A stretch of 64,000 nucleotides of DNA from Natronomonas sp. CBA1123 (lineage in GTDB: Archaea > Halobacteriota > Halobacteria > Halobacteriales > Haloarculaceae), in assembly GCF_009741925.1 (NCBI RefSeq), contig NZ_WPCC01000001.1, positions 186,001-250,000 on the forward strand. The letters run 5' to 3'. The translations under genes were made by a program, and so were the position numbers. Positions 5,605 through 22,029 of the stretch are shown here, piece after piece; within the stretch, counting starts at the first letter, position 1; each line of letters opens with the position of its first letter. The notes under the pieces are model-generated. The model made no database searches, had not been told where the DNA came from, and saw nothing but the letters and a program-made list of their open reading frames with translations.

Positions 5605-6408
5605 ATGAATGCACCCGAAAACATCGAAGAGGCGATCGAAGTACTCCAGCAACTCGGGTTGAAGGAATACGAGGCGCGGTGTTTCGTCGGCTTGTCACGG
5701 GTAGAGACGGGGACGGCGAAGAAACTCAGCGAGTTGACCGAGGTGCCTCGAACCAGGGTGTACGACGCGATTCGGGTACTGCAGGCCCAAGGGCTGGTCG
5801 AAATCCACCATTCGAGTCCACAACGGTTCCGCGCGGTTTCACTCGAAGAAGCGACCGAAACGCTCCGCGACCAATACGAGGCCCGCGTCGAACGACTTCA
5901 GGACGCCCTCGACACCGTCGAAATCGTCGATGAAGACGACGAAGAGCCGGTTCAACAAGTGTGGTCGATGTCCGGGAACGACGGCATCGAAAATCGAGCC
6001 GAAGAGCTCATCGAGACGGCAGACGACGAAATCGTACTCGTCATCGGCGACGAGTCGCTACTGACAGAGAGCCTCGTCACCACCCTCAACGAGGTCGAAA
6101 GCGGCGCCGAGTTACTCATCGGCGCGTTGACTGAACCGCTACAGGAACAGATTCAAGCCGCCATCCCTGACGCTACGACGTTTATCTCGGGGCTGGAGTG
6201 GTTACACGGTGTGGACGCCACCGAAGACGAAACCGCCATCGGTCGGTTGTTGCTAATCGACCGCTCGACGATTCTCGTGAGTTCGATTATGCCCGTGACG
6301 AAAGAGGAACAAGCGATCTTCGGAGAGGGATTCGGAAACGGCCTCATCGTTATCGCCCGCCGGCTCATGTCACAGGGGCTGTTGACCGAGCGCGACCCCG
6401 CCTCGTAG
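5605..6408 (+). CDS. TrmB-like transcriptional regulator (copy 2)
   Basis: A 267-aa TrmB-family protein. The N-terminal winged helix (about 8-80) reads LGLKEYEARCFVGLSR then VPRTRVYDAIRVLQAQGLV. The C-terminal sensor-like domain (about 110-260) includes DDEIVLVIGDESL, GRLLLIDRSTILVSS and FGNGLIVIARRLM. It is much closer to the copy at 14461 than to the one at 3450: both share LGLKEYEA and the RTRVYDAIRVL helix. The start is supported by homology and by the conserved GGTTGGGAC sequence just upstream. The ligand and targets are unknown; it is followed convergently by a HalOD1 gene. Confidence 0.9.
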   Translation: MNAPENIEEAIEVLQQLGLKEYEARCFVGLSRVETGTAKKLSELTEVPRTRVYDAIRVLQAQGLVEIHHSSPQRFRAVSLEEATETLRDQYEARVERLQDALDTVEIVDEDDEEPVQQVWSMSGNDGIENRAEELIETADDEIVLVIGDESLLTESLVTTLNEVESGAELLIGALTEPLQEQIQAAIPDATTFISGLEWLHGVDATEDETAIGRLLLIDRSTILVSSIMPVTKEEQAIFGEGFGNGLIVIARRLMSQGLLTERDPAS

Positions 6409-8177: not shown

Positions 8178-9440
8178 TCATTGAACGAATCTCTCCGCGG
8201 TCGGAGGTACGTCGACCGGAAGAAGCGCGAGTGCGCGCCTGAGCAGTGGCGGCGTCATCACGGACGTAACGATAGCGACGAACACGATAACAGCGTAGAT
8301 AGTCGGCGTGAGGATTCCGATTGCCAACCCGAGGGCCGCAACGACGAGTTCCATCGCACCGCGAGCGTTGAGCCCGATGGCGAGACAGACCGTTTCGGCT
8401 CGGGAGAGGTCGGTGAACATCGATCCGAATACCACGCCAAGTGCCTTTCCGAGCACGGCCACAGCGAGTGTGACGCCTGCGACCAGTAGCGTATCGAGCG
8501 TAAACAGGCCACTCAAATCGACTTGTAACCCGGCCGTTGCAAAGAAGATGGGCGCGAACAGTCCGAGCGTCACCATCTGAAATACTCGTTCGGTCTCTGC
8601 GTCTAGTCGAGTTCTCACGAGAATGCCTGCGAGGAACGCGCCGAGAACGGCCTCCAATCCGAGTGCGAGCGAGCCACCGGCCATCGCAAGCCCGACGACA
8701 ATGACGATCGAGAATCCGGTCAACACCGGCGAGCGAACGTATGCGGTCACATCGAACAGCGCATCGACGATTCGTGGCCCGAGAACAACAGCGACGCCGA
8801 CGAACACAGCGAGGACGGCGAGTGTTCGACTGACCCCGAACGGGTTTATTTGGCCCACACGAGCGATATCAGAGACTATCGTGAGCATGATCCATCCCGC
8901 CGCATCGATAACGACAGCGACGGTAAGGGTGAGCTGCCCTACTGTGCGGTCCATCGCATCGAGATCGATAAGCACACGGACGGCGACGGGGACCGCCGAG
9001 ATGCTCAGCGCCGTCGCCAAGAACAGCGCAAACGGCAGTCGCTGCTCGGGGGCGACGAGGAACCTCGCAGGGAGAACCCACCCTAAGGCGAATCCCAGAA
9101 GGAACGGGACGACGGAGGCCCCGGTAGCGAGCGCGATGGTCGGTCGAACGTAGCGACGGACCGTCTGAACGTCGACTTCCGTTCCAGCCAAGACGAGAAG
9201 GAAGATGAGTCCGAGCGACGCGAGGGCGGCCAACCGATCGGGTACCGGGACGACCAGCGCCGTGACGTTCGGCGCGACGAACCCGAGAACCGAGGGGCCG
9301 AGCACCAACCCGGTGAGGAGTTCGCCGACGACCGGTGCGAACCCGAGTCGGTCAGCCACCATCCCAAGCGTATGCGCAACGGCCAAGACGAGCGTCAACC
9401 CGGCGAGGAAGGTCAGTAACAGACCCGACTCAACGACCAT
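8178..9440 (-). CDS. Cation/proton antiporter (CPA2 type)
   Basis: A 420-aa membrane protein with about 11-12 hydrophobic segments and the sodium/hydrogen-exchanger pattern of the CPA2 (KefB/NhaS-like) family: GFAPVVGELLTGLVLGPSVLG in TM2-3, LVLAGTEVD, ALSISAVPVAV and GLNARGAMELVVAALG near the C-terminal half. It lacks a cytoplasmic TrkA-N/RCK domain. The ATG at 9440 is preferred over GTG 9452 because GGAGTGA lies at a good Shine-Dalgarno distance. It starts 43 nt after the stop of dacZ on the same strand, so the two are probably one operon. In several bacteria c-di-AMP controls K+/cation transporters, which suggests functional linkage here (inference). Confidence 0.88.
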   Translation of the reverse strand: MVVESGLLLTFLAGLTLVLAVAHTLGMVADRLGFAPVVGELLTGLVLGPSVLGFVAPNVTALVVPVPDRLAALASLGLIFLLVLAGTEVDVQTVRRYVRPTIALATGASVVPFLLGFALGWVLPARFLVAPEQRLPFALFLATALSISAVPVAVRVLIDLDAMDRTVGQLTLTVAVVIDAAGWIMLTIVSDIARVGQINPFGVSRTLAVLAVFVGVAVVLGPRIVDALFDVTAYVRSPVLTGFSIVIVVGLAMAGGSLALGLEAVLGAFLAGILVRTRLDAETERVFQMVTLGLFAPIFFATAGLQVDLSGLFTLDTLLVAGVTLAVAVLGKALGVVFGSMFTDLSRAETVCLAIGLNARGAMELVVAALGLAIGILTPTIYAVIVFVAIVTSVMTPPLLRRALALLPVDVPPTAERFVQ

Positions 9441-9483
9441 GAGTGTATTCACTCCTGTAGGTCAATCAACGTACGCCGATTGG

Positions 9484-10041
9484 TTAATCAATCGTCAACG
9501 AAGCCGCTTTGCAGTCGTCGAACGTACCGTTCGTGAAAACCGTTACCCGGCCGTCCTCTTCGCTGAGCGTAATCGCCGCGAGTACTTCCTCGCGTGTTGA
9601 AGTTTCCAGCGCACTCATGTGACGGGCACCCATCCAACCTGCAAATGGAAGGTCGTCGTTTCGTCGGCCTTCAGCCGCAGAGAGTTGCTTGACTCGAACC
9701 ATCGTCTCCTCGATCGTGCCATCGTCGTGAACGACGACTGCGCCATCGCGGGACAGCGCGACCTCTCGTGCGGTCTCGAGAAACACGTCGGTCTCGGCAA
9801 AGACACTCGCACAGTCCTCGACCGGCCAGCGGTTCGCTCCCATTGGAGCCGCGAATTCGGTCTTGGAGTTACGTTCGACGACAAAATAGAGCCCGGGGCC
9901 ACGGGCGCGGGGGTCGTCCCATCGCTCGAACCCGAGGCTGATGTCCTTGAGACACCCCACGATTCGTTCGAGTATCGCGTCGGTGTCTGCACCAGCAGCT
10001 GTCAGCTCCGCCGTCGCAGAACTGGGGATGGGCTCAGTCAT
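9484..10041 (-). CDS. dacZ: Diadenylate cyclase DacZ (copy 1)
   Basis: A 185-aa single-domain DAC protein that should make c-di-AMP from two ATP. The two nucleotide-binding motifs are present: DGA at 99-101 (SRDGAVVV) and, at 140-142, RHM (GARHMSALETST), where the classical domain has RHR. The haloarchaeal N-terminal half includes GPGLYFVVE and MGANRWP. The start at 10041 (MTEPIPSS) fits the family; the upstream extension is poor in family character. A cation/proton antiporter gene follows at 43 nt. A paralog with the same RHM variant lies at 20467-21030. Enzyme identity is strong by motif; activity with Met in place of the second Arg is not shown by sequence. Confidence 0.87.
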   Translation of the reverse strand: MTEPIPSSATAELTAAGADTDAILERIVGCLKDISLGFERWDDPRARGPGLYFVVERNSKTEFAAPMGANRWPVEDCASVFAETDVFLETAREVALSRDGAVVVHDDGTIEETMVRVKQLSAAEGRRNDDLPFAGWMGARHMSALETSTREEVLAAITLSEEDGRVTVFTNGTFDDCKAASLTID

Positions 10042-10316: not shown

Positions 10317-11492
10317 TCAGACCGGGTCGAGTTCGTCCTCGTCGTCGGTGATGAGGTCCTGTATCTCCTGGTCGCGCCGCTGTTCGGCGGCAGTGATTCG
10401 TTCTTTGGCATCGACGGCCTGCTGTTGGAGTTCCTTGACGCGCTGGATGTCGGTCACGTTCGACAGCAACACCGCCACGGAAATCACGTCGCGAGCCCTC
10501 CGTGGGTCGTCACCGGCGAGCACTTCGTTGCTGTCGGTTTCGCCTTCGAGCCAGCGCCGACCGCTTTCGACTCCCTTTCGGGACAACACCTCCGAGGGCC
10601 CGGAGACGACGATGAGCGACCGCTCGGCCGACGAGACAGTCGATGGGCAGGTCAGCCGGGACTGAACGCTTTTCTGGACGAGACTGCTGATTTTCGTCGC
10701 CGAGTCGGCGCCGTCGGTGTCGGCCGGCGCGGTGCCGCGGAGCCGGTCGAGCAGCCCCGTCCGGTCGGCGCTGCGGCGGTCGGCCTCGGCGTAACCGATG
10801 ACGCTGAGGCCGCCGGTCGCGAGGGTTCGGCGGATGTCGCTGGAGTCCATCGCGTTTTCCGACACCTGTGAGCCGTCGATTTCGCCGGCCGAAAGGAGCG
10901 TCGCCACGCGTTTGGCGAGTTCCTCGTTCGTCGATTCGTACCCTGCCTCGACGGTGTCACCGCTCTGCCGCCAAGCGTCGTTATCGAAGAGGATGAGGTT
11001 CTCGGTGGCGTCCGCAAACGACTGCAACGACCGGGCGGCGTTCAGCGCCGGTCGGCCACCCTCCTCGGTGCTCGGAAGGACACCCAGCCCGTACACCGGT
11101 TCGTTGTACGTCTCTCGGAGCGTCTCGGCCAACACCGGCGCGCCGCCGCTGCCCGTGCCGCCGCCGAGGCCGGCAACGATGAGGAAGGCATCGATTGCGT
11201 AAATTGGGACTCGGTCGAGTGCACGCTCGATTTCGTGGGCGTCTTGTTCGGCGATTTCGGCGCCGAGGTCGGGGTCGCCACCCGCGCCGTGACCCTTCGA
11301 CCGGTGGTCGGTTTGCCCGATGAGAACTCGATTCTCCTCGGGGACGTACTCGAGCCGTTCGAGGTCGACTCGTGCGGAGTTGACGGCGAGCGCGGCGCTA
11401 GTCAGCGTCCGACCGGTTTCGCGTTCGAATTCGAGGAGTTTGTCCGTAATCTTCGACCCCGCGTTCCCGAAGCCAATGAGGGCGAGTTTCAT
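10317..11492 (-). CDS. cetZ: CetZ tubulin-superfamily protein
   Basis: A 391-aa CetZ protein, the archaeal tubulin/FtsZ relative involved in cell shape and motility. It starts MKLALIGFGNAGSK, contains AVNSARVDL and the GTPase signature GGGTGSG at about 110-116, followed by GAPVLAETL, GLGVLPSTEEGG and LFDNDAWRQSG. The C-terminal half (about 225-391) is more diverged and ends in an acidic tail. A TATA-like TTAACTAAG lies about 30 nt upstream, fitting a leaderless start at 11492. The stop codon abuts an IS200/IS605-type end hairpin. It is divergent from the HTH gene at 11729 and probably a single-gene unit. Confidence 0.92.
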   Translation of the reverse strand: MKLALIGFGNAGSKITDKLLEFERETGRTLTSAALAVNSARVDLERLEYVPEENRVLIGQTDHRSKGHGAGGDPDLGAEIAEQDAHEIERALDRVPIYAIDAFLIVAGLGGGTGSGGAPVLAETLRETYNEPVYGLGVLPSTEEGGRPALNAARSLQSFADATENLILFDNDAWRQSGDTVEAGYESTNEELAKRVATLLSAGEIDGSQVSENAMDSSDIRRTLATGGLSVIGYAEADRRSADRTGLLDRLRGTAPADTDGADSATKISSLVQKSVQSRLTCPSTVSSAERSLIVVSGPSEVLSRKGVESGRRWLEGETDSNEVLAGDDPRRARDVISVAVLLSNVTDIQRVKELQQQAVDAKERITAAEQRRDQEIQDLITDDEDELDPV

Positions 11493-14460: not shown

Positions 14461-15291
14461 ATGGATCATACGTCAAAACAAGAACACGCGATTGGATTGC
14501 TCCAGGAACTTGGGCTCAAGGAGTACGAGGCCAAGTCGTTCGTGGCACTCACGCGCCGGCAGAGTGGCACGGCGAAAGACATCAGCGAGACCTCCGAAGT
14601 TCCCCGGACGCGCGTCTACGACGCGATTCGGGTCCTCGAAGAGAAGGGGCTGGTCGAGACCCAACACTCCAATCCACAGGTGTTTCGAGCCGTCTCGATA
14701 GACGAGGCCATCAACACCCTTCAGGCGGAGTACACCGAGCGCACCGAATCGCTCCGTGACACGCTGCGGGGCCTCGAACCGGTCGAGGACACAGAATCGA
14801 CGGACGTCACCCACGAGGTGTGGATGCTCTCCGACGACCAAGGCATCACGAGTCGGACGGAGCAATTAATCGAGCAGGCCGAAGAGGAAGTGATTCTCGT
14901 CGTCGGCCACGAGAGTATTTTCACCGACCACCTGACCGAGCAGTTGCGGGCGGCCCAAAGGCGGGGCGTCGACGTCATCGTCGGCACCATCGACGAGGCG
15001 CTCCACACCGAGATTCAAGGGTCGCTCCCCGAAGTCGAGGTGTTCGTGTCGGAACTGGAGTGGTTGAGTCAGTCCCCACTACCGGACGACGACACCGAAA
15101 TCAGTCGGCTGTTGATGGTCGACCGAGAAGCGATTCTGGTGAGTTCGTTCACCGAAACCGAAGCGGAGCGGCGAGCGCACGAACAGGGCGTGTTCGGGAC
15201 CGGATTCGACAACGGCCTCGTCACCATCGTTCGGCGGCTGATGGCCACCGGACTGCTGTTCGAGAACGGCCGAGTGGACACCGACAGCTGA
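14461..15291 (+). CDS. TrmB-like transcriptional regulator (copy 3)
   Basis: A 276-aa TrmB-family regulator. The winged helix (about 8-82) contains LGLKEYEAKSFVALTR and VPRTRVYDAIRVLEEKGLV. The sensor-like domain (about 115-270) contains EEEVILVVGHESIF, SRLLMVDREAILVSSF and FDNGLVTIVRRLMATGLL. Close paralog of the protein at 5605, sharing the same helix sequences and the same C-terminal pattern. ATG 14461 is preferred over TTG/GTG upstream because of the shared leader sequence. The rhodanese gene at 15315 converges on it with 23 nt between. Ligand unknown. Confidence 0.9.
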   Translation: MDHTSKQEHAIGLLQELGLKEYEAKSFVALTRRQSGTAKDISETSEVPRTRVYDAIRVLEEKGLVETQHSNPQVFRAVSIDEAINTLQAEYTERTESLRDTLRGLEPVEDTESTDVTHEVWMLSDDQGITSRTEQLIEQAEEEVILVVGHESIFTDHLTEQLRAAQRRGVDVIVGTIDEALHTEIQGSLPEVEVFVSELEWLSQSPLPDDDTEISRLLMVDREAILVSSFTETEAERRAHEQGVFGTGFDNGLVTIVRRLMATGLLFENGRVDTDS

Positions 15292-21135: not shown

Positions 21136-22029
21136 ATGTACGACCGAATCGTAATCGCCGTCGATGGGAGTGAAGAAGCCCGTCGAGCGGCGAGACGGGG
21201 GCTCGCACTCGCGAAGGCCTTCGATGCGGAGGTGGATGTGGTCTCTGTCGTCGAGCGGAAAACGCTCCGACTTACGGAGACGGCCGACGAGAAGCGCCAA
21301 CTGCGAGAACGCGGCGAGGAAGCCCTCGCAGAAATCGAGGACATCGCAGCGGAGGGCGGCCACACCGTCCGGACGGAACTGCTCGAAGGCAAGCCCGCCG
21401 CCCAAATCTGTGACCACGCAGAGTCGACTGACGCCGATTTACTCGTCGTCGGGAGACAGGGACGGACGGGGCTCGGTCGGCGTCTGTTGGGCGGCGTTAC
21501 CGAACAGGTCCTCCATCGGGGCGACACGCCTGTGCTCGTCGTTCCGGATGGCGACGTGAATGAACTGAACACCGACTATTCGGACGTTCTCATCCCGACG
21601 GACGGCAGCGACAACGCCGAGGTGGCGGTCCCGCACGGTATCGGTGTCGCCGAACGCTGTGGTTCGACGCTCCACGTGTTGAACGTCGTCGACCTGCAAG
21701 CTGCAGGCGGCGTCTTCGACGCCGGCGGACTCGACCGGGCGTTCATCGAACGACTCGAAGCGAGAGGCCAGGACGCAGTCGAGCGCGTCGCGACGGACAT
21801 CACGGAATCCGTCCCGTCGCTGACGGTCGAGACCGCCGTCGAACGGACGACTTCGATGGATGGAGCGGCCGCCGGCATCGAAGCATACCTCGAGGAGAAC
21901 GGAATCGACCTCGTGGTGATGGGGTCACACGGCCGGTCGAACCTCACGCGTCAGCTCCTCGGTAGCGTCGCCTCGGCCGTGCTTCGGACGGTCGACGTTC
22001 CGGTTCTCGTGGTGAAACGACCCGACTGA
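21136..22029 (+). CDS. Tandem-domain universal stress protein
   Basis: A 297-aa protein made of two Usp domains. Domain 1 (about 1-142) starts MYDRIVIAVDGSEEARRAA and carries GRQGRTGLGRRLLGGVTE. Domain 2 (about 150-297) starts VLIPTDGSDNAEVAV and carries GSHGRSNLTRQLLGSVAS. Both have the ATP-binding G-2X-G-9X-G-(S/T) signature. Tandem Usp proteins usually form monomers mimicking Usp dimers. It is divergent from the second dacZ gene. Some Usp proteins bind c-di-AMP or cAMP in bacteria, so a link to the cyclase is possible but not shown. Confidence 0.92.
   Translation: MYDRIVIAVDGSEEARRAARRGLALAKAFDAEVDVVSVVERKTLRLTETADEKRQLRERGEEALAEIEDIAAEGGHTVRTELLEGKPAAQICDHAESTDADLLVVGRQGRTGLGRRLLGGVTEQVLHRGDTPVLVVPDGDVNELNTDYSDVLIPTDGSDNAEVAVPHGIGVAERCGSTLHVLNVVDLQAAGGVFDAGGLDRAFIERLEARGQDAVERVATDITESVPSLTVETAVERTTSMDGAAAGIEAYLEENGIDLVVMGSHGRSNLTRQLLGSVASAVLRTVDVPVLVVKRPD

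Follow-up and report, generated by a model that had tools for sequence, protein, structure and literature searches.

In bacteria, c-di-AMP controls K+ and cation transporters, and RCK, CBS and Usp are the domains by which these transporters or their regulators are known to bind it. RCK_C acts as a c-di-AMP receptor, and c-di-AMP acts via RCK_C on CpaA and KhtTU, which are PF00999 antiporters with RCK. The Usp domain of KdpD is stated to bind c-di-AMP in the accessible text of PMC4686210 and PMC8214093. Among haloarchaea, the closest described protein is DacZ/CdaZ of Haloferax volcanii (HVO_1660), presented in the accessible portions of PMC6741144 as the product of a single, essential gene beside mscS2 and as active in vitro; c-di-AMP is given there as essential in H. 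volcanii. The c-di-AMP-degrading enzymes of this organism are described as not known in the available parts of PMC8305020 and PMC8646023.

The window analysed here, a stretch of 64,000 nt from Natronomonas sp. CBA1123, contains a short DAC-domain gene, dac1, followed by a cation/proton antiporter gene. The pair is real, but its upstream gene had been misnamed, the cassette is dispensable in the dac1 clade and the specific claim that the antiporter is a c-di-AMP target is weak. The family of short DAC proteins to which dac1 belongs is the more interesting result.

Layout of the gene pair and identity of dac1

A sequence-only reading had described the locus as dacZ and a CPA2-type antiporter in one probable operon. 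The same-strand pair with its short gap was borne out by the sequence and by the PF02457 and PF00999 matches (Table 1), and the Shine-Dalgarno sequence claimed before the second gene corresponds to a Shine-Dalgarno-like GGAG upstream of the antiporter ATG, which lies 43 nt from the dac1 stop. The CPA2 label holds only loosely: the antiporter far exceeds the PF00999 cut-off of 26.2 bits, but its 136 bits against TIGR00932 fall under 238.3. By Pfam, the neighbours of dac1 in the window are CetZ and the PF00999 antiporter, and the other gene adjacent to the antiporter encodes an HpcH/HpaI aldolase. The dac1-antiporter order was found again in two other genomes, with gaps of 22 nt each and a similar antiporter start context, ACAC(T/G)CATG. 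Profile search gave three PF00999 genes in all in the source genome, and the arithmetical chance of any of them adjoining either short dac gene is ~0.3%, assuming ~3,500 genes as taken from the 3.45 Mb genome.

Table 1. Features of the window at and around the two short DAC genes
Feature	Coordinates	Strand	Evidence
TrmB-like regulator	5605..6408	+	Pfam match
Cation/proton antiporter, 420 aa, transmembrane domain only	8178..9440	-	PF00999 169 bits
Intergenic gap, 43 nt, GGAG before antiporter ATG	9441..9483	-	sequence
dac1, short DAC-domain gene, 185 aa	9484..10041	-	PF02457 33.2 bits; AF2 DAC fold
CetZ-family tubulin gene, 275 nt upstream of dac1	10317..11492	-	PF21011 200 bits, PF00091 110 bits
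ORF resembling TnpB-type protein, 427 aa	12714..13997	-	judged from its sequence
TrmB-like regulator	14461..15291	+	judged from sequence
dac2, second short DAC gene, 187 aa	20467..21030	-	PF02457 27.7 bits
Tandem universal-stress-protein gene, divergent from dac2	21136..22029	+	two PF00582 matches (G000:C9:207136-207546 and 207577-208017)

The two TrmB-like regulators in Table 1 have similar sequences and lie ~9 kb apart. A CetZ-family gene directly upstream of the dac gene is also seen in Natronomonas gomsonensis (L034).

The name dacZ had to be given up. Against the haloarchaeal DacZ model NF041371, dac1 scores 22.5 bits with a cut-off of 430, whereas the true DacZ of the source genome, encoded on contig C21, reaches 502.7 bits; an MscS-like ORF adjoins this gene, an assignment based on its translation and on the dacZ-mscS2 operon described in H. 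volcanii. Profile search found three PF02457 genes in the genome, namely the dacZ on C21, dac1 and dac2, the last two being 48% identical. PF02457 (cut-off 27 bits) is the only Pfam domain in dac1; the match begins at profile position 51, and the domain's N-terminal half has no match. The predicted DAC fold occupies approximately residues 13-184 of the 185-aa protein, which has no N-terminal PK_C-like domain, and no mscS gene is found next to dac1. In a search with the models TIGR00159, NF038328 and NF038327, dac2 was far under the cut-offs and dac1 had no match. dac1 is thus a member of a separate haloarchaeal family of small DAC-domain proteins, additional to the housekeeping DacZ.

Motifs, distribution and gene neighbourhoods of the short DAC family

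The AF2 model of dac1 has a pLDDT of 87.2 and a pTM of 0.83, and all the top Foldseek matches listed for it are CdaA, CdaM, DacM or DisA, i.e. diadenylate cyclases. VIA-align Z scores against the model are 10.5-12.9 for DAC chains, with the next protein at only 3.6, and identity to the bacterial DAC structures is 15-23% over the aligned part. The fold assignment rests on the AF2 model, because the family sequence profile, searched against the PDB, gave only weak DAC matches (E 0.011 and worse), interspersed with an unrelated endopeptidase. dac1 carries the DGA, RHM and LSEE..G motifs, and the catalytic motif blocks are present in dac2 too. Across the family, DG[AG], [RK]H[ML] and T[LV]SxExGR occur together in 176 of 180 full-length copies, and D99, H141, S160 and E162 are near invariant across 183 copies. 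Of 181 copies, 77 have lysine instead of arginine as the first residue of RHR; the third residue of this motif is M or L, and M (RHM) is also found in the true DacZ of the source genome. Family-specific invariants are G48-P49, Y52, N70, W72, R116, W136-M137 and R165. Cyclase activity of the short DACs is plausible, since the DAC fold is predicted and the catalytic motifs are intact in almost all full-length copies.

A search with a 60-row alignment (E <= 1e-15) identified short DACs of ~185 aa in 160 of 391 Halobacteria genomes, representing 41 of 86 genera, and DacZ was detected by NF041371 in 388 of the 391. In a sample of 294 genomes of the phylum, short DACs were present in 19, all from the order to which the source organism belongs. 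No description of a second haloarchaeal DAC family was found in the literature searched, which covered few subscription journals. A second family of this kind, carried by about four in ten sampled haloarchaeal species and enriched near ion-transport genes, provides a concrete list of candidate partners.

One genome, G129, appears to be a case of natural dacZ loss. Its assembly is a single contig, 98% complete, in which NF041371 has no match, PF02457 finds only one short DAC and a DacZ protein query weakly matches the other short DAC and nothing else. The dacZ-linked MscS finds nothing better there than a 29% identical match, whereas two genomes of the same family (G136 and G260) have kept dacZ with an adjacent MscS that is 51% identical. 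Both short DACs of G129 (L160, L214) have intact motifs, a hint that short DACs may be able to make c-di-AMP in a dacZ-less genome, although the hint comes from a single genome and short DACs occur in 41% of the genomes in any case. DacZ was also unmatched in G315 and G376, whose assemblies are fragmented and in which no short DAC was found either. The dacZ loss in G129 offers a natural setting in which to ask whether short DACs make c-di-AMP.

Gene neighbourhoods were compared over a pool of 228 loci with 240 DAC genes, reduced by removal of 57 duplicates to 183 genes in 44 clusters of 75% identity; the loci had been picked for resembling dac1 or alignments starting from dac1, and the genes in the fetched loci were predicted by a home-made codon-usage caller rather than a standard one. 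Within two genes of a short DAC, cation transporter/RCK genes occupied 29 of 691 slots, compared with 5 of 765 genes in a background of 40 stretches taken at one fixed, non-random position (500001-520000). A cluster-slot counts any member of a 75%-identity cluster, and because this inflates all offsets, near offsets were compared with far ones and not with the background: 15 of 161 cluster-slots within two genes held a cation transporter/RCK gene, as against 2 of 171 at a distance of at least five genes (p 0.0006), the clusters being not fully independent as a few of them (e.g. L118) share one wider clade. A comparison of the +1 position only (6/39 vs 1/171) is not relied on, its offset having been chosen post hoc. 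Usp genes filled 49 of 691 near slots and made up 11 of 765 background genes; with relatives collapsed into cluster-slots their excess was weak (18/161 near vs 10/171 far, p 0.06). An enrichment of CBS domains was considered and dropped, as three Halorubrum cases were promising at first but CBS proved no commoner near than far. A cation transporter/RCK, Usp or CBS neighbour within two genes was present in 18 of the 44 clusters and absent from most, and the neighbour genes of short DACs differ strongly across the family.

Outside the dac1 clade, cation transporter/RCK genes adjoin short DACs in L082, L127, L047, L214 and L189. RCK and PF00999 genes flank the short DAC of G280, one on each side, and in Natronorubrum halalkaliphilum two antiporter-TrkA_N genes follow it. 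Fusions of APC permease and Usp abut or overlap the start of short DAC genes, with gaps of 0, -4, -13 and -14 nt, and plasmids of Halosimplex aquaticum and Halorussus aquaticus carry the run APC-Usp, DAC, TrkA, TrkH. An association of DAC-type proteins with haloarchaeal ion transport is supported by a linkage that spans genera in the dac1 clade and by the excess of cation exchanger and RCK genes, less clearly of Usp genes, next to members of the family.

Several other arrangements were noted. An RCK or antiporter gene is located no more than two genes away in close relatives of dac2 (L212, L232). In Halorubrum-type loci, including L056, L089, L093, L098 and L110, the short DAC is flanked on one side by carotenoid-synthesis genes (UbiA, Caroten_synth) and on the other by a same-strand Usp gene. 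Tandem short DAC genes with gaps of -4 to 84 nt occur in L074:6354-8190, L055:3561-5403, L059:2689-5014, L045, L049 and L054, and a single 394-aa DAC ORF within L052:5457-7331 is listed with them; in the loci read, the upstream copy of the tandem has WMS for WMG ahead of the [RK]H motif. A 2H-type gene (2_5_RNA_ligase2) follows the DACs at -4 nt in L074, 30 nt in L055, 719 nt in L059 and 18 nt in L052, and two HxT motifs are present in three of these four genes. The tandem DACs and the 2H-type gene could constitute a heteromeric cyclase with its own phosphodiesterase.

Fate of the antiporter pairing and the question of a c-di-AMP target

The dac1 clade was the only part used of a quick dac tree in which 37 of 98 inner branches are unsettled and a very long branch leads to DacZ; the clade itself comprises 13 rows with a support of 100. 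The survey of the clade took in 18 loci, the window included. Three have an intact antiporter, namely the window, Haloarculaceae archaeon H-GB1-1 (L035) and G228 (L115); four (L038, L039, L040, L120) have remnants of it, and it was not found in the other 11. A Na/Ca exchanger gene is next in L035, L038, L114 and L118, is shortened in L120 and is left as a remnant in L125. The ancestral order in the clade was probably dac, antiporter, Na/Ca exchanger, followed by repeated loss. In N. gomsonensis (L034), the dac gene is 91% identical to dac1 over the aligned length and has kept CetZ and HpcH/HpaI as neighbours. The locus is without the antiporter, however, and the dac gene ends differently.

Conserved linkage across genera, the check set by the sequence-only reading, stood in part: the two intact loci outside the window and the remnants in four loci agree with it, whereas intact pairs are confined to three of the 18. 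Most loci that retain the dac gene have a decayed antiporter or yielded none, so the pairing is dispensable. A fixed dac-antiporter operon throughout the family was rejected as well, the antiporter partner being seen only in the dac1 clade and in a handful of independent cases. Among the three loci having both genes, identity is 75-83% for dac1 and 89-91% for the antiporter, dac1 evolving faster. The dN/dS ratios (YN00) are 0.12-0.23 for the three intact antiporters and 0.20-0.42 for dac1 in the same loci, with 0.46 between dac1 of the window and L034, and both genes look to be under purifying selection.

The proposal that the antiporter is a candidate c-di-AMP target is weakened by the dispensable pairing and the lack of a receptor domain. 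A Pfam search of the antiporter gave PF00999 alone, with no RCK, CBS or Usp domain, and RCK_C, CBS and Usp were found neither in the protein nor in an adjacent gene. TrkA_C has 18 matches in the source genome, 16 of them above the cut-off. One lies ~120 nt from the PF00999 gene on C40, and for the PF00999 gene on C14 a frame of equal length (636 aa) contains a TrkA_C match. As they carry or adjoin TrkA_C, the C40 and C14 antiporters may be the likelier c-di-AMP-controlled ones, and the window antiporter is the least obvious direct target among the three PF00999 genes of the genome.

Possible roles of dac1 and comparison with known systems

The best explanation, to which we give a probability of about 0.5 as a whole, is that dac1 is an accessory cytosolic cyclase tied by operon to ion/solute-transport and stress modules. 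Its product would be a cytosolic, dimeric enzyme making c-di-AMP from ATP, an accessory source of the messenger bound by operon structure to certain transport and stress modules. In the window, dac1 would be co-expressed with the Na+ or K+/H+ antiporter of an old dac-antiporter-Na/Ca-exchanger cassette, and ionic stress would turn on messenger and ion export together. To the observed family identity, predicted fold, intact motifs, gene order and transporter-gene enrichment, this explanation adds an inferred cyclase activity, shared transcript and functional coupling of dac1 and antiporter. Direct binding of c-di-AMP by the antiporter is left out, because the protein is without a known receptor domain. 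The variable neighbourhoods of short DACs across the family, the faster divergence of dac1 and the loss or decay of the antiporter in loci where the dac gene stays would also fit an adjacency left over from shared ancestry or a mobile genomic island, with the two genes acting alone; the recurrence of cation transporter/RCK genes outside the dac1 clade, above background, speaks against such a leftover, which we regard as somewhat unlikely.

Short DACs might instead no longer be cyclases and work as receptors or regulators, with ATP or c-di-AMP bound in the former active site, that tune adjoining transporters through protein contact. The divergent N-terminal half with its family-specific invariants, the frequent lysine in the RHR motif, the housekeeping DacZ present nearly everywhere and the short DAC genes that abut or overlap transporter genes are all compatible with this role, but the near-invariant D, H, S and E of the motifs exceed the apparent needs of a pure binding protein, and G129 has two short DACs without DacZ, which leaves a receptor role unlikely. 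The model of the sequence-only reading, in which c-di-AMP from dac1 binds and controls the adjoining antiporter directly, draws on the short-gap adjacency in three loci and on the bacterial precedent of c-di-AMP control over K+ and cation transporters. However, the antiporter consists of PF00999 only, its immediate neighbourhood holds the short DAC, CetZ and HpcH/HpaI aldolase genes and not RCK, and other loci of the genome have antiporters with TrkA_C; direct control is highly improbable and the least likely of the models considered. A bolder reading, somewhat less likely than not, is that short DACs are a second haloarchaeal class of diadenylate cyclases, able to take the place of DacZ, as in G129, and serving as local, module-specific sources of c-di-AMP. 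They would be paired with cation exchangers, TrkA/TrkH and Usp-fused amino-acid permeases and, in one lineage, occur in tandem with a 2H-phosphoesterase-like gene that possibly degrades the messenger.

Among known systems, H. volcanii DacZ/CdaZ resembles dac1 in its DAC domain, its DGA and RHM-type motifs and its haloarchaeal host. It differs in having ~270 aa with an N-terminal PK_C-like domain, according to the accessible text of PMC6741144, whereas dac1 has 185 aa, and in its mscS2 neighbour, whereas other genes adjoin the short DACs, a family confined to some of the genomes. The DAC domains of bacterial CdaA, CdaM and DisA share with dac1 the predicted fold and the three catalytic motif blocks. 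KdpD offers a parallel in that Usp-domain genes recur by short DACs, dac2 included, but differs in that no histidine kinase is present here. CpaA and KhtTU have the PF00999 membrane domain in common with the window antiporter; they possess RCK, a domain missing both from the window antiporter and from its adjacent genes.
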